Assembly: GCA_037576195.1 (NCBI GenBank) | Contig: CM075104.1 | Span: 7,694,775 to 7,758,774 of the forward strand | Length of the DNA stretch: 64,000 nt | Origin: Phytoseiulus persimilis | Taxonomy: Eukaryota > Arthropoda > Arachnida > Mesostigmata > Phytoseiidae | Reading direction: 5' to 3' | Part shown: positions 9,750-54,577 of the stretch, one piece after another | Numbering within the stretch: position 1 is the first letter of the stretch | Layout: each line of letters opens with the position of its first letter | The notes under the pieces: generated by a model | The model's input: only the letters and a program-made list of their open reading frames with translations | Told to the model about the DNA's origin: nothing | Database searches by the model: none | Program-made: the position numbers and the translations under genes

Positions 9750-10036
9750 ACTTTGTGTCGCGTTCGGAGAGTTTCCGTTCGCACACCCTCGATGCCGACG
9801 TCACTCCACGGTAAAACATCGGAGGCCATGTGAGGCTCGCGAGTCGGGCGCCCACCAAGATTGGAGACAAGGACCGTGAGTGGCTCGGTCTGATTTCGGT
9901 CAAAACCCTCGACTTCCAAAGCGTGGTCAGGGGACACACGATGCGTGGTTTCCAATACTTTGAGGCTATCTTCGGAGTCTAGAGCTCTCATTGTTATCTG
10001 ACCGTGGAGCGGTTTGAAATAACGCGTCTTTTTCTC
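9750..10036 (-). CDS. Candidate internal exon, minus strand
   Basis: The minus-strand frame is open from above 10036 to the donor AAAGT|GTGAGTG after base 9750. It reads KKTRYFKPLHGQITMRALD and on to TETLRTRHK, with acidic and aliphatic residues well mixed. Codon bias is coding-like (G1 about 32%, T1 12%, G2 19%). An acceptor CTGCAAG at 10037 would start it in phase 0, joining the segment ending at 10305. Against this, its upstream edge coincides with the strong plus-strand recursive splice site at 10022-10049, whose pyrimidine tract is the complement of the GAGAAAAAGACG codons. One of the two readings may be wrong. Confidence 0.28.
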
Positions 10037-10049
10037 CTTGCAGGTGAGT
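10022..10049 (+). promoter_or_regulatory. Recursive splice site (ratchet point) 1
   Basis: A pyrimidine tract (CGTCTTTTTCTCCTTG) leads into CAG at 10041-10043, directly followed by GTGAGT at 10044-10049. A perfect 3' splice site is thus fused to a strong 5' splice site with no exon between. In known families of long introns this arrangement lets the spliceosome remove the intron in steps. The strand matches the exon at 2-136, about 9.9 kb upstream. Alternatively it is the start of a cryptic exon with the donor ignored. Confidence 0.55.
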
Positions 10050-10304
10050 TGTTCTTAACAAGAATACTGTCCATGGTTCAGCACGCTCCCAACGTAATGA
10101 ACTCCATCAGCGAATCATGATTATGGGCACGTTTGCTAGAAAGTTTCTTAGCGAATTCATAGGCAATCAACCGATCTGATGGAATTGAATTTCATCACTC
10201 GATCAGTTGATTGATGCACTCTGAGCGTCTGAAGTTGTTTGCAGAAGGAGCGTATCACGCTGGCACATAGGTACGGTTTTAGTGCTCATCGTTTTGAGAA
10301 TTAC

Positions 10305-10460
10305 CTTATTTGGGTTCTGAATTCCAGAAACATCAAAGTTTCGATAATTTCGAATTCTAATGAGACCATCGAAGGTCGTTCTGGGCGTCAACGGGGGGAT
10401 TAGTCTTCGCTTCTCTCCCGTTGGGCTTTTGGTCACTCGACAAGTGTGAACTTCCGCGAA
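10305..10460 (-). CDS. Candidate internal exon, minus strand
   Basis: The minus-strand frame is open from 10493 to 10203; a donor AAG|GTAATT after 10305 would end the exon in phase 0. The peptide reads FAEVHTCRVTKSPTGEKRR and FDGLIRIRNYRNFDVSG. T is 16% at codon position 1 and A about 40%, moderately coding-like. Two starts are possible: an acceptor GACGTAG at 10494, or an acceptor CCCTGAAG at 10461, which would join it in frame to the segment at 10498-10620 across only 37 bases. No family recognised. Confidence 0.28.
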
Positions 10461-10497
10461 CTTCAGGGATAAAGCTCCGTTACTCCCGGGGGACTAC

Positions 10498-10620
10498 GTC
10501 AAAAATGTAAATTTCCGTCGGCAAATTCAAAGATGGACCAGCTTGAAAGTTATCGTTCCACTGAAGAATGGATACTTTGCGTTCCATCTCCGCCACCAAC
10601 ACATCCTCCAGCGGAGGCGA
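10498..10620 (-). CDS. Coding-like segment, minus strand
   Basis: Forty-one codons follow an acceptor GACTCCATAG on the minus strand. They read EDVLVAEMERKVSILQWND and then TEIYIFDV. Only 3 of 41 codons have G at position 2, a strong coding sign. The frame then meets TAA within seven codons, and the next coding-like segment is in another frame; a GTAGTC at 10497 could be a donor. Either there is a 37-nt intron, or this is a frameshifted relic. Confidence 0.28.
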
Positions 10621-11031
10621 CTATGGAGTCCTGCAGCGGTGAGGGCTCCACAGGCAGCCGAAACATCAGATAACGTTATTTGCCACGATCCTGTCGTCTG
10701 AGAGAGAACTTGAATCGACATCTAAATGTTTTGCCCAATCGAACGAGAGTTGGGGAGAAAATAGTATGAGACCGGAATCTCGCCCAAGAACGGACCGTAC
10801 GGCGCCTTGAAAGCAACGGCGTCATGACTCGTCACATGCCGTGAACAGGCGCCGGGATCGCTGGATACATGGCAAAATTTGAGAAGAACATTACGCCAGC
10901 ATGAAAAACATGAATCGATACTCGAGGGGCCAGAGCGGTTTGGGAGAACCCGGAGCGGATCCCCGAATCCTGGAGTATGCCCAGCCCGGACCTCGTCGAT
11001 ACCGCGACAGACTTCCGCCATTCGCGGGCGA

Positions 11032-11304
11032 TCATTCCCGACGCCTTCCACTTTCTCCGCCGAGCAAATACTCCTTCCGATTTTCGCTGAGGAATTCCTC
11101 GGATAGTGCTTTCATCGCCAGCGAAGAATGCTCATCGGATCGCTCGGGCACAGTTGGGCCGATAATAAATTCGCTTTGAAAGCGGTGAGTTTTGCCGTCT
11201 GCAATTAATTTTAATCCGCCAGCTTGGCGGAATGTCGTGCGACGTACGTTGGCCCGCCCGCCGGACCGCTCATCTGTCCTCTTGGACTGGCCACGGAGAA
11301 AGTT
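11032..11304 (-). CDS. Coding-like open frame, minus strand
   Basis: The frame is open between TAA at 11307 and TGA at 11034, about 90 codons on the minus strand. It reads GGLKLIADGKTHRFQSEF and then SSLAMKALSEEFLSENRKEY, an amphipathic, helix-like run. There is no good donor before the stop and no initiating ATG. It may be a terminal exon or part of the same decayed gene as the segments below it; a possible acceptor is ATTAATTGCAG at 11210. No family recognised. Confidence 0.28.
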   Translation of the reverse strand, partial: NFLRGQSKRTDERSGGRANVRRTTFRQAGGLKLIADGKTHRFQSEFIIGPTVPERSDEHSSLAMKALSEEFLSENRKEYLLGGESGRRRE

Positions 11305-11963
11305 TTACGGCGGCGCGGCACTGATACGCCCAATACCCCCTGTGTCGAGCAAACGTTGCGCCCAAGCTGCCCCCAACGCCATTTTCGATGTTTGCCCTCC
11401 CCCATTCGAGCGGAACCCCACCGCCATCTTTATGGTCACCGCCGCGCCGTGAACTGCTTGATGATGATTCGCTGGCCGCCTGGGTCCTCTGGCATCGTTT
11501 CCCAGGAGTCCCGCTCGGGTTCTCCGTCCGTGTTCCATCACCGTGGGCGCGACACGTCTACCCGCGGAAAGTCTTCGTCGTCGGGGCTGTATTAGTACTC
11601 GTGTCAGCCAGAGAGTTCGTATCGCTCGCCGGTCAGTGAGTTGCTGGTCGGTTGGGTGGCTCAGTTGGGCGACGAACGGAAGGGGCGGCGGAGGGGTAGG
11701 CCAGGGAAATCGAAGGCTCGCTCGACACGGTCTGGCTACGTGGATTGTTCCCGATGAGTTGCCGGATAGAGGTGACTGCGAACTCGCCACCGCGACCCAG
11801 GCTCGGTGCAACACCGCATACAGCAGCACATTAGGCTCATCATTTCGCACGACTAGCCAGCCAGCCACCATGTGCCCCACTCACGGGAAATTCTCACACG
11901 ATTGCCGCCCGAGTATCATCACACCCAGACACAGTTCGGAACGAGAACGATCCAGCGACTCGA

Positions 11964-12212
11964 TTATGTTGGCTCTTTTTCGGTAACATCCTCCCAAAGT
12001 ACATGGGGGTGGTTCTCCGGCACGTTCGGGCGGTGCGGAGCCTGTCCTGGTATCTGAAAGCTGTATTCTACCTGCACGACTGCCGCGGCTGGCGGAGCGA
12101 CCTGAATAAGTTCCTGTTGACTTTGTTGGTTGTGAGGGCTTGCTGCCCATGGACGTGAAGACGTGTCCAGAAATACGTCGACATTGTTCACTTCGGCGGT
12201 GGTTCCCTTTTT
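11964..12212 (-). CDS. Candidate terminal coding exon, minus strand
   Basis: On the minus strand an acceptor GTGATTGCTCCAG (ending 12213) opens a frame of 82 codons in phase 0, ending in TAA at 11964. The peptide starts KKGTTAEVNNVDVFLDTSS, has a Gln-rich run (HNQQSQQELIQ) and a Pro/Ala run, and ends WEDVTEKEPT. By hand count 36% of codons start with G, 8% with T, and G is 11% at position 2; this is the clearest coding signature in the window. The antisense frame in register is interrupted, so the strand is secure if it is coding. It resembles a disordered C-terminal tail. Upstream exons were not identified; the minus strand near 12.6-12.8 kb has weaker coding-like sequence. Confidence 0.45.
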   Translation of the reverse strand, partial: KKGTTAEVNNVDVFLDTSSRPWAASPHNQQSQQELIQVAPPAAAVVQVEYSFQIPGQAPHRPNVPENHPHVLWEDVTEKEPT

Positions 12213-15200
12213 CTGGAGCAATCACGTCCGAACGAAACGGAGCCCGTAGGCTATCCAAGAAGGCCAGGCACTGGTCCCTGTCTGGCTGTAGTTGTCGTTC
12301 GCTTAAGCTGTTAAAAGCTTGTGATGGCACTTCTTCGCTTCGTCACGAGGGCTCAGATCGTTGCTGGCCGACTAATCAAACGCTCCCGAATCGGATGGAC
12401 TCGGTTCGGCAAGAATCCAAGTGTGGTAGCCGACGACGCGACGCTGCATCGGAAAACGAGTGCTCCTCTTTGAAGGCTGTCCTCGTCTTCCTCACCCGGA
12501 GAGACACTCGTTTGGTCGCTTGCCTCGTCGATCTGTCGGTGGGTGGGTGGGTGCGTTCCCCGCCCAGGACGACGTCGCTGACGACGATAGGAAAAGAGGC
12601 TCGGAAAGAAGAACTTCAACGGGAAGAGGGGCTTGATTTATATGCCACACTGTGGTGGGGTAGTTGGAACCTGACTTCAAAGTTCTTTTTCTTCCCTTTT
12701 CCCTCCTGAAAAGGCCAAGGATCGCCAGGATAGATGGAGTGGATTCTATTTTACGGCCTCTCACTGAGTTTGCGACGGTCGTGGCGGCGGATTTACTGCC
12801 ATTAGACAAGGATAGCGGCAGCCAGAGTCGACTCGGTGGATTCGTGGGTGGATTCCATTGGATATCCCGCCGGTGGATGTCTGCTTGAAGGTTCGTTCCC
12901 GCTCGGAGCAAAGGGGACATGTCAAACGAGCCAACGAACGAGGCAAAGCTTGGCTTTCAAGGAGGAAGAGCAACATTTGAATTGCGCGCCGCCGCTACTG
13001 CGCCCGCTGTAACCGGTGGATTGCTGGTGGATCCAAAGCTCGGGTTCCCCTCGTCTCTCCCGCCATGTGAAACGGAATGAGTTGGAGAGGAAGATAAAGG
13101 AACCGATCGTCTGAACGTCGCTATGGGATAGCTTGATCGGGTCGAGTCTAGCGACGGGGACGAGCGTGGACGCACAGCAGCTCCAGAGACAAAAACTACA
13201 ACGGCTGATCGCTTGCTTGGTTGAATAGCGGCAGCCCGGCTGAATGGTCGACCGGGCACGCAGCCTGTTCGCAAAGTGGCTGGCTGCGGAGGAATCTTCC
13301 GGAGCCGTTTGATGGATGTGACAAGAGCCATGTGAGCTGCTGCTGCTTCAAGGAGCAGCAATGAACGAGGTAATTTGATGATAAATACCATCCCGTCCTG
13401 GGCGGCCGCCGCAGGTGTTCCCGCGAGCTCCGGACGGGTCGCTCCCGGCACCCGGGGGAGGCGGCGGCGGAGGTGTCCCCGAAAGTAGCTGAGGTTGAGG
13501 CCTGTAGGCGAGTCTCGAATGCCCTCCCGCCAGTCTTGAGTGACCGCCGGGATAGAGGAACCGAAACGAAGAGAACGTCAAGGGAAAGTACCGACTGACC
13601 AACCTGACCCGAACCAACCACAGGATGAGGGAAACTAGCTCCTGACTGGACAGCCGCCTCCTTGACTGTCCGTCGGTGAGTCGGTCGAGCTCACTCGCTC
13701 GCAAGCTCCTGGATAGATAGCGTCCCCGGGCAGTTCTTTCTTAATTAAGCTTCCTGCGGCCCGCGCTCGGCCGCCTGTTCGGCCCGTGGCTCGGAGACGG
13801 CCAAGTCGGTGTTGATAGATGTAACGTACCATAATACTCTCTTTGAATCCCCTCCCATCTTCGTGCTGCTGCCGCCGCCGCCGTCGGTCCTCGCGATCCC
13901 GCCGGGACTCTCGCAGGCGTAGTTAGCGATAGAGAGCAGCTCAGTGCCTTTTGTCGTCCACTTGGTTCGGAGTCGACTTCACTCGACTCCAGCGCTCACA
14001 GGCATCTTCGGTCAGCAGACTGATTGAGTGATTTAACCGCTAGCCAACGACGACAGACCAACCCGGTCTGAGAGGCTCAAAACGTCCTGACGGAGGTCAG
14101 GACCCATCCCATGTAGGATTCTCCCCGGGCGCTTCGACGACTCATAACAGTTTCTTGTCCGCGATACCTGTCCTCCACGATCTAGGGCGGGATTTCCAGC
14201 ACCGAAGCAGCGCGTTGTTCCTCGTGTCGCGCTGGCCTGTTCCGATTCTTTCTCCTGGCGCAGGGGAAAATATCAAATTCTGTTTGCTCTTTCCTGCTGC
14301 GATGGAAAACGTATCGTCGCTCGACCGAGTTGAATTGAAACGCAACTTGCCGCGCGGCCGGGGAACGAGGTTTGGAGTGGTCCGTCCTTCTTTTCGTCGT
14401 CGTCTTCTCCTCTTCGCCCACCCGGACTCATGATGTCGGCGGAATCCTATTTCCTCTTCTTCGCAATATGACCAAGTTCCTGAGAAAAGACAGCTACAGA
14501 GCGAGCCGGAGGAGGAAGTTCTCATAGAGATTCTTTTGCGGTGCCAGCAACAGTCGCACAGCACATTTCTTAAATAGTGGAGGAAAGGAGTCACGATTCG
14601 GTCCATCTCGCTAAACATGGTCACGTACGCTGCGAGCTCCTTCTGCTTTTGACGAGCTAAATGCAACCGGGATGATGCTGTCCAACGCTCTGCTGCCAGT
14701 CTGGTCGGGCGGGCGGGCGGGCGGTCAGTCAACCGGAGAGACGAGAGGAGCCAGCTCGCCAGCATATGGCGCAGCGTTCGGCCACATCCACCCTTTTACA
14801 GATGAGTTTCCCTCGGCCATGCGTCAGTGGTTGCGGCCTCGCAGAAGTGCTACTGCCGGCTCCACTGCTAGTAATAGTTATGGTGGTGGTGCAAGTAGGC
14901 AGCAGTTGTAGTCGGTAGGATCGCCGAGAGGAGGCCTGCCGGTGGTCTTGGCCCGGCCCGGTATGTCTTAGCAAGCGGACACGCAGCCATTTGGGCTGTT
15001 GCATAATTGAGAAGCACTTCGTCATTTTGGTAATGCTCTGAAATATTAACCTCGTTACTGCGGCGGCTACTGACCCAATGCCTGATCGGCTGAACGCCGT
15101 TTGCGTCTGCTTGCCGACCGACGCGGAGTTCACCCACCTTCGCGACGCGCCGCGAGCGCTCTACGTCGCCGTCGCGCAGTGGCCTATACGCCGCGGAGCC

Positions 15201-16830
15201 CTCGGCGTTACGCTGGAGCATCCGCTCCGCAACTAGTTCCTCCCTCCTCTCCGTCTCAACTGATCCACGTGCAGCGGCGTGGAGTCGGGTACTCGCGCAT
15301 CGCTGAATGGACGAATGCGTTCATTTTCGAATGAGCGTGCGATCGGGAGCTTTTTCCTCCCTCGTCGCTCCGATGATGAGGCAATAAAGCCCCGATGCCG
15401 TTGGGGTTCAAGAAACGGACGTGAACATTTAGGTGTCCAATTATGGTCCGAGACGAACGCCACTTGCAATCCTGCCGGAACGACCAACAACAATCTGTGC
15501 TTCTCGTGCTCGCCTCTGCGAATGAATGCCTCGATCGGGATCGTTGTTCTCGTGCGGGTTTCCCTGATCGTTGAGTTTCCGCGGGAGGAACTCGAGGAAT
15601 TTTTATTTTCTTCTGTGTTCAAGGCACTTTGCCGCGTTCATGACCCGAGGAGCGTTTTTTCTCGCGAGCCGAGCGTGAGACCCGCTTGCAGATCAAACAA
15701 AGGAATAAGGGGGTTACTTCACCGGAGTAACCCGTCGTTCGCCGTCCGTCCGACCGCCGAGCCCCGGCCGGGCCCTGCAGACTGCTCGTCCTGCTCGATG
15801 ACCTCCTCCTCGTCTGTGGCCGCAGACTCGAATGCCCTCCTGTCACGTCACCGAATTCCGTTCCAGGATTCTCGAGATCACTATGATGAGAATTTTTCCT
15901 CCGTCCTCTCTTGCTATATATAGTATGCGGGATCTCGTTCGTTCGGCTCTCGTAGAGGACAGCAACCAGCCGAAGTGGATGTCCCAGAGCAGAGGCTCGG
16001 ACGTCGACGTGATACTCGGCCGCTCCACGAATTCGTTAAATTATGTAAAAGCGAATGTCAACCTCAGCTGTGATTACAGCCGCTATCGCTGTCGACGACG
16101 GGACGCGTTTGTTCGTTCTCGCCCCGGTCGACTGTTCCTGAAACTTCTCATTTTCCATCATCTTACTGTATCTCATTCTTCCTGTTTCGGCTGAACTTGT
16201 GGATTTCCTATCTGAATACGTTCTCATAGACTCGCTTCTATTTTCACTTCACTGACCCATCGGACTGCTTCGACGAATCCCAGTCCTCGGCATTGATTCC
16301 CGCACATTCCTCCCCGCACCTCGAGGTGTTCCATTCTGGTATGGCTAGTTTTCCTGCGCATGCGAACTTCGGATTCGGCGATTGCAGGGCCACCTTGTGA
16401 CTGCAGATTCGATTCGAATATTGTAATGTTCCGCCTCGCATGTTTCAGCACTCTGGGAGAATGTATTCCTCGACACCCCCGAGATGCTTCGCCTGCAGTC
16501 TTGCGAATGAATATGGACGGGGTTCGCAATGTTTTCTCCGCTCAGAACATGCTCAAATCCGAGGCACTCGTCGCATATTCGTTGCACTGGATCCTAGACT
16601 TCTTTCTCATAGAAACCCCGTCCTCAAACTTCCTCCCCCACGCCTCTACCCCACGCTTGAAGTGGCCATGTGAAATCTCACGCAGTCTTGCTACCGCTTC
16701 CGTTTTTCACTCTATTCGCTGCTTCGTTGCTATTGGTCTCTGTGTGTTCGCCATCTCGCTGATCGTCACTGCTTTTCGCTGGACTCCCTCGTTACACAAT
16801 CTTTCTCTATTCTCCATCCTCGCAATCGGT
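12213..16830. other. Noncoding stretch
   Basis: Holds short tetranucleotide repeats (GGTG near 12540, GGGC at 14707-14723 followed by a TCAGTC) and a TATATATAG at 15915. The segment 16200-16860 is rich in T and C and yields hydrophobic frames by composition alone. No gene seen apart from weak minus-strand candidates near 12.7 kb. Confidence 0.4.
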
Positions 16831-16836
16831 ATTTAT

Positions 16837-16880
16837 CTAACCGGTTTCATTCTTCCTATTTCTAGTCGGCGAAGAAAAAG
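16837..16880 (+). CDS. Candidate 15-nt microexon with its acceptor
   Basis: A branch-point match CTAAC at 16837-16841 lies 24 bases before TTTCTAG (AG at 16864-16865), with a clean pyrimidine tract between. Only 15 bases later comes AAG|GTAAGA (donor at 16881). The exon body would be 16866-16880, 15 bases, a multiple of three, so it keeps the phase-0 frame of the exon at 2-136 and would add Ser-Ala-Lys-Lys-Lys. Microexons of this size are known from neural genes. All longer readings hit a stop soon after. It could be a decoy splice pair in a long intron. Confidence 0.35.
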
Positions 16881-19421
16881 GTAAGAGCATTTTCTTAGTA
16901 TTTGGAATGTTCTTGACAATCTGTCTCTCTTCAATATACTATTAAACGGAACTCGCCTCGCAATGGTAACTTGGATCATACACTCTTAGATACTAGAATA
17001 GTCTAGACTGCCGACATCCAGCTCGCCAGAAAAGCCTGAAGAGGCCGTTCACCTGCAAAACGATTATGATTCGATGGAATCCAGCCCGGGTCGTTCTGAG
17101 AACGAACTGTGGCACCTCAAGGATTTGGGAGCTCCCGAGAGCACTTCGAGATCGAACGGATGTCAGTTGTGAGCACACTATCTCTCTCGAGTTTGTTGCA
17201 GAATACTTTCATGGGAGCATGGCGTTTTGGAGCTCGTTGTCGCACATATGAGCTCAGGGGAGAGGATCTCTTTGACGTGAGGCCATGAAGGCCAGATGCG
17301 ACTGATAAGGCTCCGTGAGATCCTGGCGGTGATGCCGATCGATGCGAGGCAAACGAGCATCAGATATTGGTGGGGGCGGTTGCCACGGCTGTTCATCGAG
17401 GATCTTGTCTCAGGTCCTCCTAGCGCGCAGGGAGCGACTGTTTGACCGCGCTGATGTGGCAGATAACGACGGTCGACGCGTCGCGCAGCTCAGCTTTCCC
17501 GCTGCCGCAGGAAAGCAAGCGCGCTCGCTTCGAAGTATTGCCCGCCATGGCTCTATCTGATTCCGTGTTTTTCCCTCTCTCTCATTCGCCTCCAGTGAGC
17601 ACACCCGGGCGTCCGGGAGTGCGTGCATTCAAACAAAGCCTCGCAAGGAAGGGAACTGTCAGAAATCCGACTTCATTCTGTACTCTTCCACTCTGTCACT
17701 CGCGGTTCCCTTCCCGTTGTTTCCTGGGACCGTTTTTTGAAACGGCGACTCTTGCCCCAAAAGCCCTTCCGATACTGTTGTTATCAGCCTCCGTTGAGTT
17801 CCACCCCGTATCAGAACGGGTCTGACTTCCACACACGCTTGATGAGTTTGCTCCGCGTGCGCCGTTTTGACAGATACATGAACCAATGTCCTCGCACGGA
17901 AACCGCGCACAAACCAGCAGACGGACGGAACAAAGCGAGGATAAGAGGAGTAATAACAAAGAAGTTCGCCGCATCCTCGTCCACGGGTGCTCCCAATCGA
18001 ATCCTGTACCGGAGCCCGGCGTCGGGCACGCGAGCTCGTTCTCCGGATAGTTTTTGATGCGGGCAAGTCCCGCAAGCTTCTCGTGGAGTCCTCCGGCGTT
18101 GGATTTTTGAGTTTCGAGAATCGTTCTCCTCACCCTCCTTGAAATTAGTGGGAGAATAGGCACTCCGGTTGGCGCCAGAAATGGTGGGTGTAGTTTCGGA
18201 GACCCTCATTCCTTTGTCGTTCCTGTCGGGGGTTGTGCCACGTCAGATTCCCCGTGAGGGAGGCGAGTGCGGCGAGTTCTCTTCTGGAAACGGCGGGCCA
18301 GGTTTCTATTCCTGGATTCTCCGCCGCTCTGGTGGCGAACCTCGTCGTCTTGATGCGCTTCATCTCTCGCGCACCCCGCCTCCGTCCCCGTTCTCGGTCG
18401 TCTGTCGCGTCCTTTTTCCGTCGTATTCGGCCGTTTTCGTTCGCAGGAAAAGCGGAAATGACTGTAGAACCCGCAACTCACTGCCCGAAGGCACTTCGGT
18501 ACTCGAAGCGAGGCTCACTTGACTCTTTAGAACCTACGAGGAGCTTTTTGGAATCATACCCATCTTGAGCTGCTATCCTCATCGTACCGACACTCGGTCC
18601 GTCTCCTCCCCGCCCGGAGGACAGGAAATGGAAAAGCTCCTCCATTGTTTCCAAGCTCTCGACTGATGGCTTTGTTGCACGGAATTCATTTTTCTTGCGC
18701 CTGCGTTCGTTCCGTCGCTCTCGTTCCCTCTGCCGAAGAACGCACTCTTCTCGTCGGTCTTCCGGAGCCCGATTCTCCTTCTGAAGTTAGCCGACTGTAA
18801 TTGCCAGAGCTCACGTCTGGAGGGAACTCGTGGGTCACGAGCCAGGTCCGGGGAAGTTCGATATTCGTCGATCGTTTCTCCGATCGGAAATCTTCGAACT
18901 CCCGGTTGTGTTCGAAGTTTTGGCCGTCATCATCGGACAGCCACTTCTTTTCACTCATGACCATGATTTATGTACGCGAGGAATCGATCGGGAACTCCGA
19001 TTTCGAGTGAGTACATGACCGGACTTTAGGAGTGCTTCTGCGGGGAATGGTTTCGATTCGACTGAACGCGGAGACTTTGACGATTTCGCGCTTGTCGAGT
19101 CGATCGAGTGTGAGCTCGGCGAACGATGGTCGATTGCTGGTTTGAATATTGGACGCGTGCTCAGACCAGAAGCTTCTCGGTCCCATGCCTGACCATCAAC
19201 TCGGACGGGGAGCGCGAGTCCGTGGTCACGTCGACCAGCCAGGCTCCGAGCCCAACCCGGCGGGGAGAGCGGGCCGAGTCTCAGTAATATCATCGGTGTG
19301 CTGGCTTGAAGGAGACGTCCCGGTTCCGCCGCGAGAACGGAAGGATTTTTTGGAACGCCAGAAAGCCGAACGACCGGAACGAGGCGAGCTGTACTCTGGT
19401 TTCGATTTCCCTCTAACACAG

Positions 19422-19744
19422 GTCAAACGATCGCCGCCGCCCACGAAGATGATGCGGATCCGTTCCCTGGAGCTCATAGGACGACTGCTGACGTCAGGAG
19501 CGGAAGGAGAATGTGGCGCAATTGTGAAAACTGGGTCGGGACGGTCGAGCGGAACAGCGCAGCAAAATTAATCGAACTTGTAATATTCGATGAGAATGAG
19601 CCATCGGGGCTGGCCGGCCGGTCGTGCCGCTGCCCCCCACCGCCACCTGGGTCCGGAATATTGTTAATTGTCGAGAGGGAGTTCAATGACAAAGACACGC
19701 TCGGAGTCGTGCTCGACAGCGCTCCGACAAACAGGGGCTCCTGA
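19422..19744 (+). CDS. Candidate terminal coding exon, plus strand
   Basis: A strong acceptor (GATTTCCCTCTAACACAG, ending 19421) opens a frame of 107 codons, phase 1, to TGA at 19744. The peptide includes AAHEDDADPFPGAHRTTADV, KLIELVIFDENEPSG, a CRCPPPPPG run and LLIVEREFNDKDTLGVVLD. Codons starting with G are about 39% and with T about 14%. A second frame from the same acceptor, phase 0 (VKRSPPPTKMM to TAQQN), is open to 19571 and would match the phase of the exon at 2-136, so the frame is not settled. The antisense strand is also open (19474-19953, Ser/Asn-rich). No domain recognised. A perfect TGACGTCA lies inside at 19490-19497. Confidence 0.38.
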
Positions 19745-20280
19745 ACGAGCGCGTATGGAGCTCCGACAGAAATGAAATTGGAATTGCTAATCGTGCTGTT
19801 GCTTAGGAGAGCGCTTTTCCCTCTGCTCCTGGTCGCCGGCCAAGAACTCAGCTGTCCCGATTGGGTTTTTTCCGAGCCTCTCATGGTGTCATCGCGCGCG
19901 CGAGCTCGTCTGCCCGCCGTCTCACCCCGCGACCATCTTGATATTATGCGCACCGCGAGTGGGTGGACCCGGGGTTCGTCATTGTGTTGTACTTATTGAT
20001 ACGTCGTGCATTCCCCGATCGGGAGTCGTAAGGGGAAATTGGCGAGGCTTGTTAGTTGTCGTCGTGCTTGCCTAGGCGTTAATATCCGTCGCAAGGCAAG
20101 AAACTCAAGCTGCCAACCACTTATAGCATCAACCCGGCAGCTCGATATGACAGCTGCTACAAGCCGGAGTGTAACCGCGCTTGACACCGTCGAAGGCTCA
20201 GGTTAAGCGAAGCGAGCGGGCGGCCCACCCCACTCACCGTCGCGCGGATGGATAAATGAGCGGAGGGAGAACGAATGAAG

Positions 20281-42908: not shown

Positions 42909-42916
42909 TTACGTGA

Positions 42917-43391: not shown

Positions 43392-44989
43392 GTAAGCCTG
43401 GCGAGCCTACAACGGTTTGCTTCGTTGGAGAAAGTCCAGCCGCCGCCGGCCAGCGCTCGAGAACAAGGACTCCGAAGTTCCTCTTTTCGTCTTCTTTCGT
43501 CCACGACGACAATCGATTACGTTGAAGACCTTTGTGAGGTGGCTAAGGGCCTGCAGTGTCCGATAAGACGTTGTGTTTACTTTCCTTGTTCCTCTTTCTC
43601 CTCTTTCCCCTTTCAAGCTTTTCCAGGAGCTTAACCGAACACGGCTCGTGGCCCGGCGGCCGATCTGTAATATACCGGGCCAGGTCTCTCGGCCGGTCCG
43701 GCGGCCTTTGAGCGTGGGCTGTAACTCCGCTCGCAGTCTCGGGTGAGGGTCGTTCGACGTCAGCGTTTGAAACCCTCTGTCGTCAACGATTTCCGACGCG
43801 CATTGTTGGAGAGGGGGATGTTCATCCGTGACGATATCGCGGCGTCTGGAATTGTTCGCACGGTCCGCTGAGTTCCCGCCCGTCCTGTATCCAAACTCAA
43901 AAACAGATTGACTGATTGACTGGATTTGAATGTTTGTTTTCGGATGATTGGACGCGATCGTCGACCGTTCGCTTGCCTCATTGTTCACATTGTCGGAAAT
44001 TTTCAGTTTCCATCCACTGAAGCGGCGAAACCCGAGGATTCTGGAGAGAGGGAGAGCTGGAGGAGGGGTTGGTGACGGCGCATACGACTGCGAGCCATTT
44101 GCATGAACGAGAAAGTTCTCCGAGCCAGTTCATTGTAGTTACGGAATAACGTTGCATCGTTAGACGCGAGCGGGAGAATGCATTCGGAGCTCGTTTGTCA
44201 TCATTTGCGAAACTAGCTGAACTCCAATTATCCGAGCTTCCTTTTTTCTTCCGCACTCCTCGTCTCCTGCCGGCTCAACTCTTTGCGGCTCGTGCCGCCC
44301 GTCCTCTACTCCGGAGGGGGCGCGATGGAAGCGCGCACGGAGCCGGATCACTCCAGTTCCTCACATCTCCTTTGAGTTGTCACCTCGATCATGTGTCGGG
44401 AACAATTGCTCTGCCGCACAGATGTCACGTTCGCTCTCTGTCTCCGAACACAGGAGTGCAACAAAGTGCGATCGTAGCAGGCCGAGCCCGCTGCGCTCAT
44501 GTCCTACATGCGCGAGGCGAGTCTTTCATGAAATTGGCTGTCTGGCCCTCCTTTCCTTCGGCTGAGGTGGAATTGAATCTGTTTTCTCCGCTGTCAAAAC
44601 ATATTGACTCCCAACTCGGGGCCAGCTCGACCGGTTCGCATGTGGAACATATTTCTCCTCCAGACTCCTCGAGGGCCTCGCGTGTGGCACGCCAGCCGAA
44701 GAGTTTGTTTCGCCGCTCGCCGGACCCCTCGCTTGTTGGCTGCTCGGGGTTCGCTGCAGTCCGTCGGTGAACGAGTTATAGGAGACGTTAATACTCCTTC
44801 ATACTCCCACGCGGCCTCTACTTTTCTCTCCTGGGCCTAAACGCTCTTTCTACTCCTCTATCTGGAACCGATGCGAATGAACGAACGTGGCACCGACGCA
44901 ATCCTCTATAGAAGCATTCAACGTGTCACAGAGATTACACAGTTGCCGAGTGGATCACGTATATCATAGCCCAGCGAACAAAGGAAATT

Positions 44990-45004
44990 GACACACACAC
45001 ACAT
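44990..45004 (+). repeat. (AC)n microsatellite
   Basis: About seven AC units. Confidence 0.8.
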
Positions 45005-45861
45005 ACACAAACTTAGAAGCAGACAGCTGAAAGTTCCCGTGGGATTGCTCCTTGGAGCCGAACATCTAGGTTTGCTCGACGACTTTATGAGAAATCAGAG
45101 ATGCCGGGAATTTCGCCCTCCTCTGCGCTGAGTATGACTCCCCCAATCGGTGGCTCAAATTCACGACTATGTATTCTGGTGAGCTGAACAACAACGCCTT
45201 CGATTCACCCGCGGAGACTGTCGTCGTTATTTCTCTCAAAACTTTGAGCTTTCCGCGAGAATTTCTTGGAGTTCCGGGGGGAAGGGCAAATAAAATGAAG
45301 TTATCCGAGCTGAGCTGGTTCGCTCACCCAAGTCCCTCCTTTTCATCGAAATTTCTCGTCGTGTGTGTAATGATGGTGTGCAGGGAAATGTCGAGTTACT
45401 GTACGTACATGACATGCCAAAAACGGTCTGCTGAGAGGATCAGTCGTCCGGGCCCATGGAGGACGAGGTTAGTCGCTGTTGAGTCTGAGCGGTCATCTAT
45501 TAGGAGTTCAGGGTTCAAGCCAACTCTTTTCACGACGCGCTACACGTTCAGTAATTGAAGTTCACTCTCCTGGGCGGGAATCTCGGACCAAACGTTCGAG
45601 CCCGCGATCACCTCTCCCTCACAGCTCCGTCGCTCCTATCTTTAGTTGAGTCCGCACGCTGAGAGTGAGAACTATGACAGCCGCTGGTGCATGCCAGTGA
45701 GCGTTCGTTGCTCCCTCCGGGTTTCGCTCCGCCAGTCAGTCACACAATCGGTCACGTCCGGCGTAAGAGCAAGCGCCTTCTGGGTCAATGGTACCAACTC
45801 GATTAGTTGAGGTGCCACGCACCGGCTGCAACGTAGACCGCTCCCGAACAGTGCGAGGAAT

Positions 45862-46236
45862 TTGAGGAATTTAATTCAAGATGTAGTGGACGCATTCTTG
45901 CCGCAGCCGCCCGTGCCTGAAGAGGAACGACTGGCTTGCCACCCGGACATCCACCTGTCTGTATCGGACACACCTCCCGAGAATGGGAACCTCTCGAGAG
46001 GTCAAACAATCATCGACGCCCGGGCAGTGAACGAGCATGAGATCCAGACGAGCGATGGAAAATCGGATACGCGCAAGGAAACCCACGACATTTGGTCCAC
46101 CGTCCAGTCTGGGGACCCCAGACTCCACAGGGTCGCTCTGGAATTAGGTTTCCATGGGGAGGATCAAACGCAGTCCGGAAGCGGCCATTTTGGCAGCCGT
46201 AGCGGGGGAGGGGGGGGGGCGTACGGCCCGGAATGA
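45862..46236 (+). CDS. Coding-like open frame, plus strand
   Basis: The frame is open from about 45810 to TGA at 46236. From 45862 it reads LIQDVVDAFLPQPPVPEEER, then DIHLSVSDTPPENGNLSRGQ, TIIDARAVNEHEIQTSDGK and VALELGFHGEDQTQSGSG, ending in a Gly run made by a G10 tract. About 35% of codons start with G, 13% with T, and G is 17% at position 2. The antisense frame in register is also open but richer in Arg, Val and Cys. No ATG opens it, so it would be a 3' exon; a possible acceptor is GCTCCCGAACAG near 45850. Family not recognised; mostly polar and probably disordered. Confidence 0.35.
   Translation: MRNLIQDVVDAFLPQPPVPEEERLACHPDIHLSVSDTPPENGNLSRGQTIIDARAVNEHEIQTSDGKSDTRKETHDIWSTVQSGDPRLHRVALELGFHGEDQTQSGSGHFGSRSGGGGGAYGPE
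46210..46219 (+). repeat. G10 homopolymer
   Basis: Ten G after GGGGGA, at the 3' end of the preceding open frame. Confidence 0.9.
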
Positions 46237-46997
46237 AGCTGAAGTTCGAGGGGAGACGAAGGAACGAACACGACACCGCCCCCAAGCGGCTGTTGGTGAG
46301 CGACGTGCGAACGCGCTTAGGCAAAAACTTCCTCATTCCGAAGACAATATCGAATCGGTGGGGGTGCACAGCCTGTCTGCGCGCCTTTTCGTCCGCTTGC
46401 TCGGGCTCCAGTGACGCGGGCCACCCCGACCGCCGAGTTTGTTGCCGGCCTCGCGGGCGCCAAAAGCCATAAGACAATCCTTCATTTTTTGCATATTGCG
46501 TGGAAGACTCCAAGACCGAAGAGCCGCAGCCAAGCAGCAGCGGGGTTGGCGCCCATGGTAAGATGGAGGAGAGGGAAGGAAAAAATTGAACGGGCTTTCA
46601 GAATGCGCGTGGGAGGTGGTGGGTTGCGGTGGCGTGAGTTGAGGAGTCAGGAGCACTCACTCGAGGAGTTTGCGGGAACCTGATCACAAGCGCCGCCACT
46701 ACTCGAGGGTAGAAGCTCGAGGTGGGCAACGCGAAGACCAGGAGATGGATTCGGGCGGACACTTTTGTCAGTATTTTTCTGTAAAACTTTCGACTCCCTC
46801 TGGAAGTGCTATTCTGCTCTTGGCTCCTAGTACGGCCGAATTCGCCGCAACTGCCGCCCCCGCTGTCGCAGTAGCCGTTACTCCTAAGTCGCGACGCTCT
46901 CGGCTCCGACACATCAAAAGTAATAGAGATTGTCTCCACGTTTCACCTCCTCCTAGAAGTGCATGTGCCGTCGAAGCTCATCGGTCTATATGACGAT

Positions 46998-47198
46998 TCA
47001 TGGATCGTCTCGCTCGTCCTCGTTGCCTTCAACGAGATCGACCCCTCCATACGCCTGTCGGCTCGCGTTCCGTGCCGTAGCCATGTCGTGTAATGCGTGC
47101 ACTTCAATCGGAACGACCGTCGGCAGCGGATCCTCCCTCTGCCGGCGACGCTTCTCCGCCTCGGCTCGCAGATCTCCTGCGCGATATCCGATGGACAC
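46998..47198 (-). CDS. Candidate terminal coding exon, minus strand
   Basis: The minus-strand frame reads GYRAGDLRAEAEKRRRQRED, then LPTVVPIEVHALHDMATARN and ends YGGVDLVEGNEDERDDP at TGA. Nearly half of the codons (49%) start with G and only 5% with T, the most extreme bias in the window. A possible acceptor (GGATATCGCGCAG) lies at about 47180. An Arg/Glu-rich helix-like region precedes an acidic C-terminus. Plus-strand frames overlap but have weaker bias. It converges with the plus-strand frame ending at 46236. Family not recognised. Confidence 0.38.
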   Translation of the reverse strand: MSIGYRAGDLRAEAEKRRRQREDPLPTVVPIEVHALHDMATARNASRQAYGGVDLVEGNEDERDDP

Positions 47199-47724
47199 GA
47201 CTCGGAGTCAAATGCGCTCTGAGCGAAGGGCGGGGGGATCAGATTCGAAGCTCGGAGAAGTTGATTCGAGAACCTTCCGATACACGGACGGTAGAGTTTT
47301 TCGGCGATTCGTGGACGCTTTCGACCTCGTTACCTCGATCGAGGCTGACCGATACTGTACGATAAGGCAGACAAGATTAGAGAATTAAAGAGCTCGGCTC
47401 CGAGCGGCGACTTGTCACGCCCCGTGGCTACTTGTCAGCCTTGGATTCCGCTGGAGCCATCCGCGGCGGGTATGAACTCATTAGAAAACTCGTTCAACAC
47501 CTTGAAAAAAGTAAATGAAGTCTTCGTCATCGAATCGGAATCTCCAAAAAACATTACCAACGGGGTCTTGATTCTCGAGCACTGATCATCTACGGATGAG
47601 GCTCGCTCTTGCGGCAGCCAGCAAGTGAGGATGATTATCAGGAGAACAGTTAGCGGGAGTCGCGGAGGAAAATAACTGCTTCAACCCCGATAGTCAGGCT
47701 GGCTGGCCTTGGAGAGAAGTTCGG

Positions 47725-47934
47725 CTAATTATTCATCTGGCACGTAGAATGAACCGGTGCAATTTCATTAGTACTCTCTTGTTCAATCAAGTCGCTAGGT
47801 CCGTCGCTCGGTCGATCGGTTGGTTGGTTGGTTGGTTGCTCGCTCGCTCGATGGTGAGGTCTTGACTGTATCAGAAGCGAGGAGATCACTTTCATCGGCA
47901 AAGTTGCCACCGCAGCCGCGGAACTGTTTGTCAT
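47725..47934 (-). CDS. Small coding-like frame, minus strand
   Basis: ATG at 47934 with A at -3 (GGAACAATGA) opens 69 codons to TAG. The product is MTNSSAAAVATLPMKVISSL followed by a Gln/Pro/Thr/Asp-rich repeat (QPTNQPTDRPSDGPSD) encoded by the GGTT microsatellite, and ends HSTCQMNN. T is 12% at codon position 1 and G 14% at position 2. No strong donor inside. It could be a first coding exon of the gene ending at 46998, or chance. Confidence 0.25.
   Translation of the reverse strand: MTNSSAAAVATLPMKVISSLLIQSRPHHRASEQPTNQPTDRPSDGPSDLIEQESTNEIAPVHSTCQMNN
47818..47851 (+). repeat. (GGTT)n then (GCTC)n compound microsatellite
   Basis: About five GGTT units followed by three CTCG units. On the minus strand they encode a Gln-Pro-Thr-Asn repeat. 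Confidence 0.85.
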
Positions 47935-50398
47935 TGTTCCATTTCCATATTGAATTATGACGGGCTGCTTGGAATCGTCGTTGGCTGGCTGCTTGCTTGT
48001 CTGACTTCTCGGTTCGTTGTGCTTATATTGATTTCATGATGAAATCGGATGATGCGGCCTCGGCGGCCACACTGGACGCCGTCGTGGCGTTCGCACACAT
48101 CGGCCGCGCCTCACTCAGCCGCCACCTAATACGTCCGCCCGCGTGGCTCGTCGTGCTTTTCCGCAGACTGGAAGGCTGGGGCTTGACACCGCCTGAGGCT
48201 TCGGCACAAAGAGCTCTTCTCTAGTCGAGCCCCAGTCGGTCGGTCGGCTCTGGCTCCGGTGGGTTTTGTTATTTGCTCAAAGCATATTTGCACTCGGAGA
48301 GATCATATCGCATCATCTCTGAGGCGGCGACTGGGCGGTCGTCCTTCAGTCGAGTTTTCTCCTGTAGTTTGTGGACTGGTTGGTAGATTCCTCCTTTCAC
48401 GTCTCATGTTTCGAGCAGACCTGCGTCGCTCGGGGTGCGGGCTCCGGAAAGCGCGTCCTTGGAGAACACAAAACAACCTTAGAACTCGCACAGGTTTCTC
48501 TTCGGCGTCCGAGGCTCTCTCAAAGGGTCTCACCAAGCTGACAAAACAAACCTGAACCCCATCGGAGGGCTGCTGTGAGATGGGGGAGTTTCGCTTGCCC
48601 TGACCCGAGAGCGCCATTCCTGGCTGAAGACACTCCTGGAACAATACCAAACATGTGCCAAACCTGAAGCGGGTTCCCTTCGCCGGAACCGAACTGTATA
48701 TGAGCCATTAAAAGTTTTCTGAAGGAGCGACACGTGGAAGAGCTTCCGGCACTGGCCGGAATGGCGAAGAGCGATAAGCAGCTTGAGCTTTTTATCAATC
48801 CCAGAGCGCGCAGGACGCCCGGAAAGCTCCCGCTTGCAGGGCTGCTTGCTTGGATCAAGGCGGAGTTGTTGTTGTTGCTTTTATTGAAACTAATGAAGTC
48901 ACTCCGGCTTCCCGCACCGCTCTCCACTTGGACTGGGCCGGATCAAGGCCGTCGAGGCGATCTCGGCGCTTTGTGGCACCCCATTACGGAATCTCGGGAG
49001 CTTTGGGCGCGGAAAGTGCCGCGAACGCCACCACTAAACGAACGGACCGAGTCCCGGTAGCGATACCAGAGCTTTCTGGAAAGTCAGGCAGGAAAAACCT
49101 CGACGGACTGCCGTATATCGACGCTCCAGTCCCCTCGCTGCGCCGGTGGTCGACGCTCGTGGCGTGGACTCTGTTTTGGGACTCGGAGGGGAACCGGAGA
49201 AACTAACAATAGAAACTTCCCACGGGGGGAAAAGCCCCCGACAGATCGAATCACAGGGGATCCGTCTCAGTTTACGGCGATGCGCCGATCTGCCAAGGGA
49301 CGGTAACTCGGGCTTCGTAAGGAATTTTTGTGGAAGCTCACTGTCAGGCTTGGGAGGACGGTTTGTTCTAGAATTCTCTCGTCACCTCGTCGATCGCACG
49401 GGCTTGAAGAGGAGCCGAAACCCCGAGTCTTTCGAGGGAGCCCCTGTGGAGAGTTCCGAAGGTACAACGCCAGCAGATTTCTCCGATGGCTGAGTCGGGG
49501 CGGCGCCATATTCCAGCTTGGGCGAGCACTCGCCGACGATCCGATGTTGGAAAAAATATTATCATCCGCGGCTGGTCGTGTTACACGAGGAATTAGGGGA
49601 AGGATTCGGGTGGTTGGTATTACGAAATGGAACTCTCTGTTCTCCCCTCCCATCGCAGAAGCAAATTACCCACGAGAAGCGCGGACCCGCAGCGTGCGCC
49701 AGTGGTAATTGAAACCGATGGAGAAAAGTGCTGAGGTAGATCTTGCGGAGCCTCGGACCGATGAGCCCGTCGAACGACCGACGAGCTAGCAACCCACCGA
49801 CTGAGGGTGGAAGAATCTTCTCGATCCCTCCAGGGAACTTCGCGTTAACTCCAGAAGCGGAACGACTACAATTCATGAGAGGGGAAAAAGCGAGCGAAAC
49901 TCAGCAACGAACTTGTTCTCGATTCACGAGAATTCTTTCGCGGCGAGCTGAGAACCTCGCCGACCCGATAAGTACCCTGCGAGGATCACGCTTTGAACAG
50001 CGGGCAAACACGATCGCGGGAGTGCGAGTTCTCTGTTTCAGCCCACCCGTCCATTGACACCACGCGGTGACATTCTTGGAAGAGCACCATCTGTCCCCGA
50101 ATTCGTCTGAATGTGATATTACTCTGCCGCGTGTGCGCTCGTTCCCCTTGTCGCGAAAAGTTGTTGCACCGAAATGTGTTCAGACGCTGGCGCTAGTAGG
50201 CCGCGTGAGGCGAGGTCTGGTTTTTGAGGCACTTAAGAAGCCCCGGCTGACTAACGGGCCCGACGGCCGGCTGCTCCGTCGGCTCTCATTTCTCCATCCG
50301 CTCGCAAATCCGTCAAAATGGCAAACGTAGCCAACCCCGACGAAGAATATATGTTCAGCGGAGAGACTAATTCAATTATCACTATTAAAGATGTCTAA

Positions 50399-50710
50399 GC
50401 GGGCTGGACCGGATGCCTAGATGAGCACACCCAAGATGACGTCAGAGCAATTTCCTTGCAGCGCGGCGCTTCGAGCGACTCGGTAGAGGTCCCAGCTCGG
50501 AGCTTTATTTCCAAAGTTACGGCGAGTATTAAACCGGGAGCGATGGCGAAACAGAGGGCTGAGGCGAGCAGACTGCAGATTCCAGTTAGCCTGGACCGCG
50601 CCCTTAGAGAATCGCTGACTGTGGTGGCGATTCGCGAGTGCATCGCCGGCGAGCCGCGGCCATCTTGTCGCTCTTTGGAAAAGTCTCCAAACCGCGGTGT
50701 CAACAGTTGA
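50399..50710 (+). CDS. Coding-like open frame, plus strand
   Basis: After TAA at 50396-50398 the plus-strand frame is open for 103 codons to TGA at 50710. It reads CLDEHTQDDVRAISLQRGAS, then SFISKVTASIKPGAMAKQRA and SLDRALRESLTVVAIRECI. About 35% of codons start with G and 13% with T over the last 84 codons. The antisense frame (50395-50703) is open too and contains a hydrophobic run, ICSLLASALCFAIAPGLILA, so the strand is unsure. No acceptor stands out. Family not recognised. Confidence 0.27.
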   Translation, partial: AGWTGCLDEHTQDDVRAISLQRGASSDSVEVPARSFISKVTASIKPGAMAKQRAEASRLQIPVSLDRALRESLTVVAIRECIAGEPRPSCRSLEKSPNRGVNS

Positions 50711-51506
50711 GCGCGTTGCGCTCCAGAGCGGTTCTCACCCTGGAAGACGTATCGCAGAAGAGCTCAGCTGTCGACTGAGGATCCATCTCCTCTGAGAGTC
50801 CGCCAAAGCCAAGACTGGGGCCACCTCCGCCTTGATGCAGATGCTTTTCTAGCTGAGAGGTGTCCCTGTTCGGTGATAGAGTCCAGCGAGTTCTTCGACG
50901 GATCCCGGACCCACTGCTGCGTTGCGATTGTTTCTGAAAGAACGGCAAATGGCAGACATACGAGTTCACAGCCCCATAGGAAAGGTTTCGAGCGGGTTCA
51001 GTCAACAGTGCGATAGAGCAAGGTCTCGAAGCTTCGGTACCGCTGTCGGCTGGGTCATGGAAAGCAGCAGCGGAAGAGGAAAAAAGCTCTTGTCCGTTAA
51101 GTCTAATTCCATTACAATGTTTCTCAGCTCTGGTCATGGCCATTACTGCGACGACGGAGAATTTCATTACATTGTACTTTATATGATTGCGAATCATCCA
51201 GGAACGTTTTGCTCAATGGCCTTTCATCTCGCGCCGAGTCGCGCCAGCTCGATTCACTGTCCGCCTTCTGCGCCTGCTTCCGTTGCCTCACGAGCGGGAA
51301 GCGAGTTTCTCGGCTTCGGAGGAACAACGGTCGCCGACCAAGTTCGGAAGGCAACAAAAATATTCCGGCGTTCGCCATTAGGGAATTATTCCCCCCTCCT
51401 CACGTTGCTCTTTCTACTGCTCCTCGAAGTGCTGCTGGTGTCGTCGTCATGTAGTTGTGGTGGTGGCGGCAATTGCCTTTTGCACAGACGTCCCGCCACG
51501 CGTTTG

Positions 51507-51516
51507 CCCCCCCCCC
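51507..51516 (+). repeat. C10 homopolymer
   Basis: Ten C followed by TTCGG. Confidence 0.9.
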
Positions 51517-51649
51517 TTCGGCCCCTCGGCTCTGCGTTCGCGCCCGCTTCGCCCGTTGAGCATAAAAACCGCACTCGCTCCTCCTTGCGTATATCATTTA
51601 ACCCACATAGTCACCCGCACATGTACGCGACTGCAGGGACCGACGAGCG

Positions 51650-51668
51650 TACATACATACATACATGT
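51650..51668 (+). repeat. (ACAT)n microsatellite
   Basis: About four tandem copies of ACAT ending ATGTATG. Confidence 0.8.
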
Positions 51669-52916
51669 ATGCCCTCCACAAACAAATGTTCCTCCAACCG
51701 AACGAACGACCCAGTGTCTCTCGCAGAACGTTTTTGCTCTCGCTACAATTGTCACCCCTCGCAGATTCGGGCCGAGCCGCCGCCGTCCCGATAAAAGTCC
51801 CGCGGAATACCATCAATTTTCCAGATCGATAGGACCGCTAATGAGTGAAATGGGAAAAGTTGAGCGAGTCTGGTTCTGTACAAGAGCCTCGCCGGTCCGC
51901 AGGTCCTGTTATTGGCAGGCATATCGCAGAGACCGTTGTGGAGTAGAGCGGCAACGACGCCATTGTTGTTGTTGGTGCGGCGGCCATAGCTGCCGGTGGT
52001 GCGGTCGTCGAGTGATGACCGTCGACACCATTACGGCATTCCGGTCGTTGCACAGATCTCTCGTTTTTTTCTCGACGCACTTCGTCATCCAGGCCAGAAT
52101 TAATTTGCGGTGGCACTCAGCTAAGAAACGTGACTGTTCTCCCGGGTCGTCGGAGTACGTTACTACGCTCCAGGATGCGATCGTTGCTTCGTTCCTTCTC
52201 CCCTCAACTCTCGAGCTGCGTGCTCATTACAAAGGTCTCGGAATTGACAACCGAGAAGGAGAGAGCGTGGAGGGGGAGGAAGAAGGTCGGACACTGTTGC
52301 TCTCTTGGCGCCGCTCTCGGCCGAGAAGTCGTCGCTTCGCGTCTCAGGCCCCAAACTACACTGCGCTGCGGCGAGCTTCCTCTGAATAAGTTCCTGAGTG
52401 GTGCTGCTCGAGTGAGCGGATGAGAGACAGAGGCCAGGGAGCTGGACGCAGGAGCGCCCGAATCCCGGTAACCGGATTCTAGGTTCCCTGAAAAGTTTGA
52501 TCGTTAATTCGTTTTTATTCTCGGTGATTCCCGGACCGTTTCGGCGGAGCCATTCGACTTGCCGTGTCATCTGTAGCTTTCGGGGAACGGAGGCAGATTG
52601 CAGCCAACTTCGAAGGTCTTTCTTGACTGGAGATAGTTCATTGCGAGCGTTCTTGCCGAGAGGCTCCTCTACACACCGGCGACAACGACAGCTCCTTCTT
52701 CCCCGGGTTAGGGGAGGGGAGGGAAGAGCAAATACTGCGAATTCCGAAACGTTTCCGGGAAAAACAAAGCGGGCGCGGGTGGGCGATGTCGCCACCGGCC
52801 CTCTGTGTTGAACGGCGACCCGGTTCGATGTGTAACATTTCGAACAGAACCGTAAGCGAGGGCGATGTGAAGGATTTGCCAGAGAGCTTGATTACAGCCT
52901 TCCGCATATCGTGTGT

Positions 52917-52929
52917 CCCCCCCCCCCCC
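52917..52929 (+). repeat. C13 homopolymer
   Basis: Thirteen C flanked by GTGTGT and GTCC. Confidence 0.9.
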
Positions 52930-54555
52930 GTCCATCCGTTCCTCGACCGAGGCTTGCCGACGTCTACAAACGATAACCGCCCCCTTCCTCGAACGTTCCT
53001 CCAGACCTACGATGCGTTGGGGTTCGCTCTTCGAGCAAAGTAGAGGTTCGCGAACGATTTTACTTACTTCATGGAACATTCTGTGAGCTGTCATCCTTTT
53101 GTCTGATGGCCGACTCAAACAAAGCGTTGCTGAGAGCGCGGAGAACCGGTGGCGGCACCTCTGACTCGCTGGCTCTTTTTCTCGCCCGAACCTCGAGCAT
53201 GACAATGAGCCCGTCTCAGTGTCAACCTTCCCTAAAAGGTTCGCGTCCCCGTGCAGGACTTCGGGGCTTCTGCGGTCCGAAACGTACGCAGTCGCAAGTT
53301 GACGTTCCGGAAAGCGGTGGATTCTCGAGGCGGGGGGACTCCCGACGCGGGAACACTCAAATCACTAGCTAAACGCTTGAGGTCCATCTCAAACTTGAAG
53401 TTCAGCCCTCAGGCCCGAGAAGACGTGGGAACGGAGTCAATCAAACGGTTATTATAAAACCGAAGATGGCTTGAGATCTCCGCCAAGATGGGAGCGAATC
53501 GTACCACTGGCTGCAAACATCGTTTCGTGATGTTCTCGCGTCAGAGCTCCGCTGCTTCACGGCTCCCGCTCTCGAAACTCTGTTCCTGCCTCCCCGTCCT
53601 TTCTTTTGTGCGTCGGCCGACGTCGTCCCGAAATCTCGAATCCTCGATACAGTGACGGCTGCGGTGAAGACTACGACGAACCGGCAGCGGCAAGCCTCTC
53701 TGTTCCAAATCAGCCATGCGGATAAATCAAATATTGAGACAACACAAAAAGGCAAGCCGAACCGAGGCCCGACAGAGGAAAGCAGGCGAGCGAGCGAACG
53801 GACCGCAGTGACTGATTCGGGCACTGCGCAACAGAAATTTTTGAAAGCGAGCAGAAAACTTGGAAGGGGGTGGCTCCCAATATGAATGCTTTCGAGCAGA
53901 GTCTTTTCTCTCAAGCTCTCTTCATTTTTCCCGCTGGTTCAGAAGCAGCCGCTTCGGCAACGATTTTTTTCGGACATATTGTGTATGGAGATGAGTGCGA
54001 CGCGGCTTCATCCGGGAGTGATATTGGCCGGATGGTTACACCATCCACATTTCAGATGAAAGCGCCATCTTGTTTTGGGCTCCTGCCCCATTCCGGATGG
54101 CGCCGCCATCTCGAGAAAAAACCACGCGGCTGACTGCGGAATTAGACGACGGCCAACAAACGGATCCCCTCCTCGGCATTCTTCATTTCCTGCCGAGAAT
54201 TCTACTCCGCCTCAGAGATCTATGCCACGACCCACGGTTCTCCTTATCGCGTTCAGGGTGGCGGATCCGGCTTGTCGCTCCGTTCAAGTGGCGAGCCTAA
54301 TGAAGTTCCCAGCACGCGTCTTCTCAATATCGCGGCCGGGAGCCTCCTTGTCTCGGTTGCCATTCATCAGAGAAAAAAAGAGCGAAGACCCATTGTGCGC
54401 GCGGGTTCACTTCGCTGTAGCCATTTCAAATATCAACACCTCAGTCTCACTCCGAGAACCTCACGTAGCGGGGAGAGGGGGAGAGGGAACCGCGTTTCGG
54501 AGATCGGCGAGCTCCGTGGAGCGAGGGGAGAAACAGAGCTGAATGATCACAGAAT

Positions 54556-54577
54556 TCGATTTCGTTTTCAGGTAAGT
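54556..54577 (+). promoter_or_regulatory. Recursive splice site (ratchet point) 3
   Basis: GATTTCGTTTTCAG ends at 54571 and is followed directly by the ideal donor GTAAGT at 54572-54577. Same structure and strand as the sites at 10.04 and 41.39 kb. The closest match of the three to the textbook AG|GTAAGT ratchet motif, though with a shorter pyrimidine tract. Confidence 0.55.

Follow-up and report, generated by a model that had tools for sequence, protein, structure and literature searches.

According to the part of PMC13149111 drawn on here, most of the documentation of recursive splicing comes from Drosophila, mouse and human. For Drosophila, the portions used of PMC8605326 and PMC6110457 describe zero-nucleotide ratchet points (RPs) in Ubx, kuz, Bx, Tet and other genes, with two RPs in the kuz intron of about 50 kb and three in the Tet intron of about 55 kb; in flies a short recursive splicing exon (RS-exon) is described, with a downstream donor that is generally weaker than the RP donor. 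The human cases are presented in excerpts of PMC6110457 and PMC13149111 as recognised via RS-exons by exon definition, and the excerpt of PMC13105047 contains human data. An enrichment of RP sites in large introns was found for fly, mosquito, honey bee, beetle and sea urchin; for vertebrates the same excerpt reports no significant accumulation (PMC2773006). Here we analyse a stretch of 64,000 nucleotides from the mite Phytoseiulus persimilis (contig CM075104.1, here C4; “the window” below), in which RP-like sites occur upstream of the recognised exons of a stomatin-like gene on the same strand. The sequence makes it probable that this gene has a long first intron and that these sites act within it as ratchet points, which are recursive splice sites of zero length.

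Ratchet-point-like sites on one strand

The window (C4:7694775-7758774) has a GC content of 56% and belongs to an assembly of 181 Mb in 127 contigs. Kinase genes in this assembly are poor in introns, reminiscent of phytoseiid mites, for which PMC6902594 gives about three introns per gene. For the analysis 150 kb of left flank and 100 kb of right flank were added to the window (−150 to +164 kb, 314 kb), and all coordinates given here extend the window numbering. Junctions of the type AG/GT, where the slash marks the junction, received a joint acceptor and donor score from generic matrices that were not trained on the species; the cut-off was set to 13. The original prediction had named three recursive splice sites on the plus strand, and the sequence at 10043/10044, 41390/41391 and 54571/54572 is as it described. 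The number and the extent had to be corrected, as the 314 kb contain six sites that reach the cut-off, some of them beyond the left and the right end of the window:

10022..10049, junction 10043/10044, plus strand: RP-like site, pyrimidine tract and CAG/GTGAGT, score 19.1
41367..41396, junction 41390/41391, plus strand: RP-like site, CAG/GTGAGT, score 14.0
54555..54577, junction 54571/54572, plus strand: RP-like site, CAG/GTAAGT, score 15.2
−32741, plus strand: RP-like site in the flank left of the window, score 18.5
−11290, plus strand: RP-like site in the flank left of the window, score 13.7
77357/77358, plus strand: RP-like site in the flank right of the window, TAG acceptor, score 16.3

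All six sites have the acceptor and the donor juxtaposed at AG/GT, as is characteristic of zero-nucleotide ratchet points, and GTGAGT is the donor in five of them. With scores from 13.7 to 19.1 on the plus strand and no minus-strand junction at or above 13, the sense-strand excess is 6 to 0; the top minus-strand AG/GT over the 314 kb scores 11.7. In the window itself the motif YAGGTRAGT occurs three times on the plus strand versus zero times on the minus strand. The earlier statement that the minus strand offers no equally good case is thereby confirmed.

To judge the role of chance, 60 order-3 Markov simulations of 120 kb were calculated for the region from −33 to +87 kb. At a score of at least 13 they yield a mean of 0.067 sites per 120-kb strand with a maximum of 2, compared to the observed 6 on the plus and 0 on the minus strand. 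The array of sites therefore exceeds chance. The next matches on the plus strand, at 87182 and 91375, both score 12.4. They represent an ordinary coding donor, that of the hydrophobic exon described below, and its duplicate, and they indicate that an ordinary donor can closely mimic the RP motif.

Regarding a repeat origin, a search of the 314 kb and of the sampled loci with each site and 400 bp on either side gave no match other than the site itself. Rfam gave no match within the window at gathering thresholds. A 22-bp tandem repeat with 2.8 copies is located at 20280-20341.

The stomatin-like gene and its predicted first intron

All six sites lie upstream of exons of a stomatin-like gene on the same strand, whose first recognised exon begins at 87079 and thus past the last site. 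The gene was found by an exon scan combining coding score and splice sites, by peptide pattern searches and by sequence reading. The scan covered −100 to +164 kb and required acceptor and donor scores above 3 and a coding score of at least 4; untranslated exons escape it. The recognised exons are:

87079-87182, plus strand: stomatin-like exon with the hydrophobic hairpin
89326-89398, plus strand: stomatin-like exon
89533-89615, plus strand: stomatin-like exon
112309-112568, plus strand: stomatin-like exon
112765-112843, plus strand: stomatin-like exon
112952-113218, plus strand: stomatin-like exon holding the stop

The gene model has AG and GT at every internal junction, and the joined frame, including a predicted first exon at 58-136, is open to its end. 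Compared to the PDB the joined protein matches Stomatin (7.5e-122), with an alignment that spans the hydrophobic stretch, and in Pfam it matches Band_7 with 132.1 bits (cut-off 23.6). The joined protein thereby shows the arrangement of the stomatin family (SPFH/Band 7), a Band_7 domain behind a membrane hairpin. A whole-genome search for the family finds Band_7 at C4:7807017-7807340 on the plus strand, which is the exon at 112309.

As the exon at 87079 opens within a codon (T/CG), the upstream exon must end with one codon base, and the phase of 58-136 fits this requirement. Candidates for the first exon were defined as phase-1 stretches of 30-450 nt from an ATG to a donor with a score above 2.5, located between −150 kb and 86 kb (about 236 kb). 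The exon at 58-136 ranks first of the 89 candidates on the plus strand and above all 65 candidates on the minus strand. The runner-up, −62113 to −62044 with a donor score of 6.6, is a weak candidate exon. In the 258 bases before the ATG at 58 the best AG has an acceptor score not above 1.8; lacking a good upstream acceptor, 58-136 would be a first exon. The two predicted features are:

58..136, plus strand: predicted first coding exon, 26 codons and one base (phase 1), donor AAAT/GTATGT
137..64000 in the window and on to 87078, plus strand: predicted giant intron, 86,942 nt in all, ending at exon 87079-87182

Between 136 and 87079 the coding exon scan lists no exon on the plus strand. None of the 35 plus-strand open frames of at least 150 amino acids in the window matches Pfam at an E-value up to 0.001, and neither do the five shorter plus-strand frames in the window that were searched (the frame at 55392 was left out). 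The simplest model suggested by the sequence is an intron of 86.9 kb with four ratchet points. The first-exon donor at 136/137 would be joined to the AG at 10043, leaving a new donor GTGAGT at 10044, which in turn would be joined to 41390, and so onward via 54571 and 77357 to the last donor (77358), which would be joined to the coding exon at 87079. At each site the AG would be the acceptor, and the GT that follows it would become the next donor, so that the intron would leave as pieces of 9.9, 31.3, 13.2, 22.8 and 9.7 kb. Transcripts begun at an earlier promoter are perhaps those to which the sites at −32741 and −11290 belong. If all six sites serve one gene, the exon at 58-136 cannot be its sole 5′ end, and to this extent the role given to the donor at 136 in the original prediction would have to be restricted.

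The surroundings of the gene hold further features. Between 85528 and 93910 two copies of a 4192-bp stretch, each with the first three stomatin exons, follow one another head to tail with 99.95% identity and a single N at 89718. This duplication is probably an assembly artefact and touches none of the RP-like sites. A T-box gene is nested between the stomatin exons on the minus strand (105855-106901, open frame of 349 codons). On the plus strand a GDT1 gene, presumably TMEM165-like, follows at 134528-135209, and transposase open frames lie on the minus strand at 147028-148341, of which the part searched matches HTH_Tnp_Tc5.

Like sites across the genome and the weighing of explanations

The whole assembly was searched with a strict pattern (YYYYYYYYNCAGGTRAGT), a looser pattern (YYYYNNYYNCAGGTRAGT) and a purine mirror of the tract as control (RRRRNNRRNCAGGTRAGT). 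The strict pattern has 57 matches versus 32 for its reversed form, and the looser one has 137 versus 68. The purine-tract control has 47 matches, and its reversed form has 70. Site 10043 (C4:7704806) is matched by the strict pattern and site 54571 (C4:7749334) is found in the looser list; site 41390 is missed by these patterns because a purine breaks its tract.

All 137 sites were listed by splitting the looser pattern (87 + 50 matches), and an earlier clustering test on 100 of the 137 looser and 54 of the 57 strict sites is superseded by this listing. The 133 sites on C1-C4 (four on small contigs were left out) were compared to 2000 random placements, for which the lengths of C1-C3 were approximated by about the furthest match. 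Among neighbouring sites less than 35 kb apart there are 13 same-strand and three opposite-strand pairs, compared to 1.92 and 1.70 at random, and none of the 2000 simulations reaches 13. The spacing of all 13 same-strand pairs is 10-29 kb, with none below 10 kb. At distances of 35-100 kb a slight excess is left, with six same-strand pairs and one opposite pair compared to 3.40 and 3.09 (249 of 2000 simulations reach this). The 44 purine-type sites on C1-C4 form no pair below 35 kb; since only 0.17 and 0.19 such pairs are expected, this control is weak with regard to clustering. One must also keep in mind that the ordinary donors of one gene could likewise cluster on one strand.

The largest listed cluster consists of four RP-like plus-strand sites within 53 kb (C1:35684738-35737893). 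Three RP-like plus-strand sites at C4:17147244-17177095 are located about 161 kb upstream of four consecutive homeodomain matches on the plus strand (C4:17338109-17343978), one of them inside an open frame of 1672 amino acids which we take to be zfh-like. A search for Meis/homothorax gave an N-terminal domain at C1:45555867 on the plus strand; the nearest listed plus-strand site downstream, 229 kb off, is too far away for a link to be drawn. Genome-wide, 86 RP-like sites are on the plus and 51 on the minus strand, an imbalance for which we have no explanation.

The motif, the strand bias, the same-strand gene past the last site and the genome-wide same-strand clustering fit ratchet points in a giant intron. 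These four lines of evidence also support the view of the original prediction that the window may be the inside of such an intron. Judged by them, the sites are most likely functional zero-length ratchet points. We infer their use in splicing, the order of the steps, the first exon, and the assignment of all six sites to the stomatin-like gene.

Several observations weigh against this reading. The donor at 136, already put forward by the original prediction as that of a plus-strand exon, is only moderate (score 3.6), yet the exon predicted to end there leads its candidates; the peptide of this exon (58-135) has no match in the PDB at an E-value up to 10. The splice scoring matrices are generic and not species-trained. 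A branch-point-like CTRAY is present from −60 to −15 at one of the six sites, compared to 9% of random places; three of the six have the less stringent YTNAY. When the best donor 25-150 nt past each of the six sites was compared to random places with the generic matrix, the percentiles were 0.22, 0.93, 0.66, 0.54, 0.08 and 0.43, with one of six above the 90th; the downstream donors are no better than random, and, as far as six sites and a generic matrix can tell, there is no evident RS-exon of the fly type. For the genome-wide class, the 16 close pairs taken by themselves give a modest result in a sign test (P = 0.011). The agreement in strand with nearby exons is weak as well: 114 of the 137 sites and 44 of the 47 controls were compared to 224 homeobox, RRM and I-set exon places, drawn from 95 homeobox, 133 RRM and 151 I-set matches (for I-set, among the matches listed) after matches on small contigs and near-duplicates of the same gene had been removed by hand. 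Of the 114 sites, 16 have such an exon within 50 kb, 10 on the same and 6 on the opposite strand, and of the 44 purine-type controls 5 do, 2 on the same and 3 on the opposite strand.

The ratchet points could be real and yet serve another plus-strand transcript, from an unrecognised gene or as a long non-coding RNA, or the stomatin-like gene could use just a part of them. Two sites precede the first exon, which is itself only predicted, and a further plus-strand site is located at C4:7495084 (about −199.7 kb), so that more than one transcription unit is possible. It is opposed by the exon scan, in which no other plus-strand exon rises above a weak coding score from −100 kb to 87 kb, by the 35 longer plus-strand frames of the window without a Pfam match, and by the open frames from −150 to −100 kb, where only weak ones are listed (frames of the left flank were not homology-searched). 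The four sites right of 136, moreover, are all flanked by exons of a single gene that agree in phase, and we regard a different or divided assignment as unlikely. The sequence CAG/GTRAGT is the donor consensus itself, and the sites might accordingly be ordinary splice sites, either as donors of unannotated exons whose 3′ end happens to be a pyrimidine run plus CAG, or as acceptors of exons that by chance start with GTGAGT. The coding donor of the stomatin-like gene at 87182, with its score of 12.4, illustrates how this could come about. The exon scan from −100 to +164 kb, in contrast, which does not reach untranslated exons, lists no exon ending at the donors of the sites, and the donors downstream of the sites are not above random. 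Ordinary donors would not be expected to show such a surplus of pyrimidine tracts (137, compared to 47 with purine tracts) or to avoid spacings below 10 kb, and we hold this explanation to be quite improbable.

Chance matches appear hardly credible as a source of the array. A single site would be unremarkable in 181 Mb, and the reversed looser pattern alone gives 68 matches. Against this stand six sites compared to 0.067 expected, all on one strand, and the genome-wide clustering of like sites on the same strand. Zero-length ratchet points in the first intron of the stomatin-like gene thus represent the reading that we prefer.

Comparison with described systems

In the open-licence literature searched, recursive splicing is not mentioned together with chelicerates, and mites occur only in a piRNA review; a co-mention with stomatin was found only in a paper on tumours, judged by its title. 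If confirmed by RNA, the locus would add a further animal, in which a single gene may have as many as six sites. The 137 listed sites, with their same-strand clusters, could serve as a test set for two questions: whether recursive splicing is general in invertebrates, and whether RS-exons are required. A more far-reaching idea is that the ratchet points here are true zero-length exons, which in a genome that is otherwise compact would be recognised across tens of kb with no RS-exon donor. We consider this rather unlikely; if true, such recognition would differ in mode from exon definition as it is described for flies and vertebrates.

As far as the cited portions describe the Drosophila ratchet points, the mite sites resemble them in the acceptor and donor juxtaposed at AG/GT, in introns of tens of kb and in the occurrence of one to several sites per intron. 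They differ in the animal and the host gene, in being known from DNA alone, and in that the RS-exon donor about 50 nt downstream, which those portions describe, is not evident. The RP consensus printed in the part of PMC2773006 used here is gtaagt, whereas GTGAGT prevails in the mite array. With that survey, as far as it is excerpted, our analysis shares the computational comparison of sense and complement and the motif; it differs from it in that the array is tied to one gene model and that clustering was tested genome-wide, for a Phytoseiulus genome that the excerpt does not name. The human cases, in the parts cited above, are recognised through RS-exons by exon definition; at the mite sites an RS-exon donor is not evident. 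With vertebrate recursive splicing as excerpted (cadm2 and others) the locus would have in common the stepwise removal of a very long intron. The mechanism is already known, and what would be new is a further animal and a further host gene.

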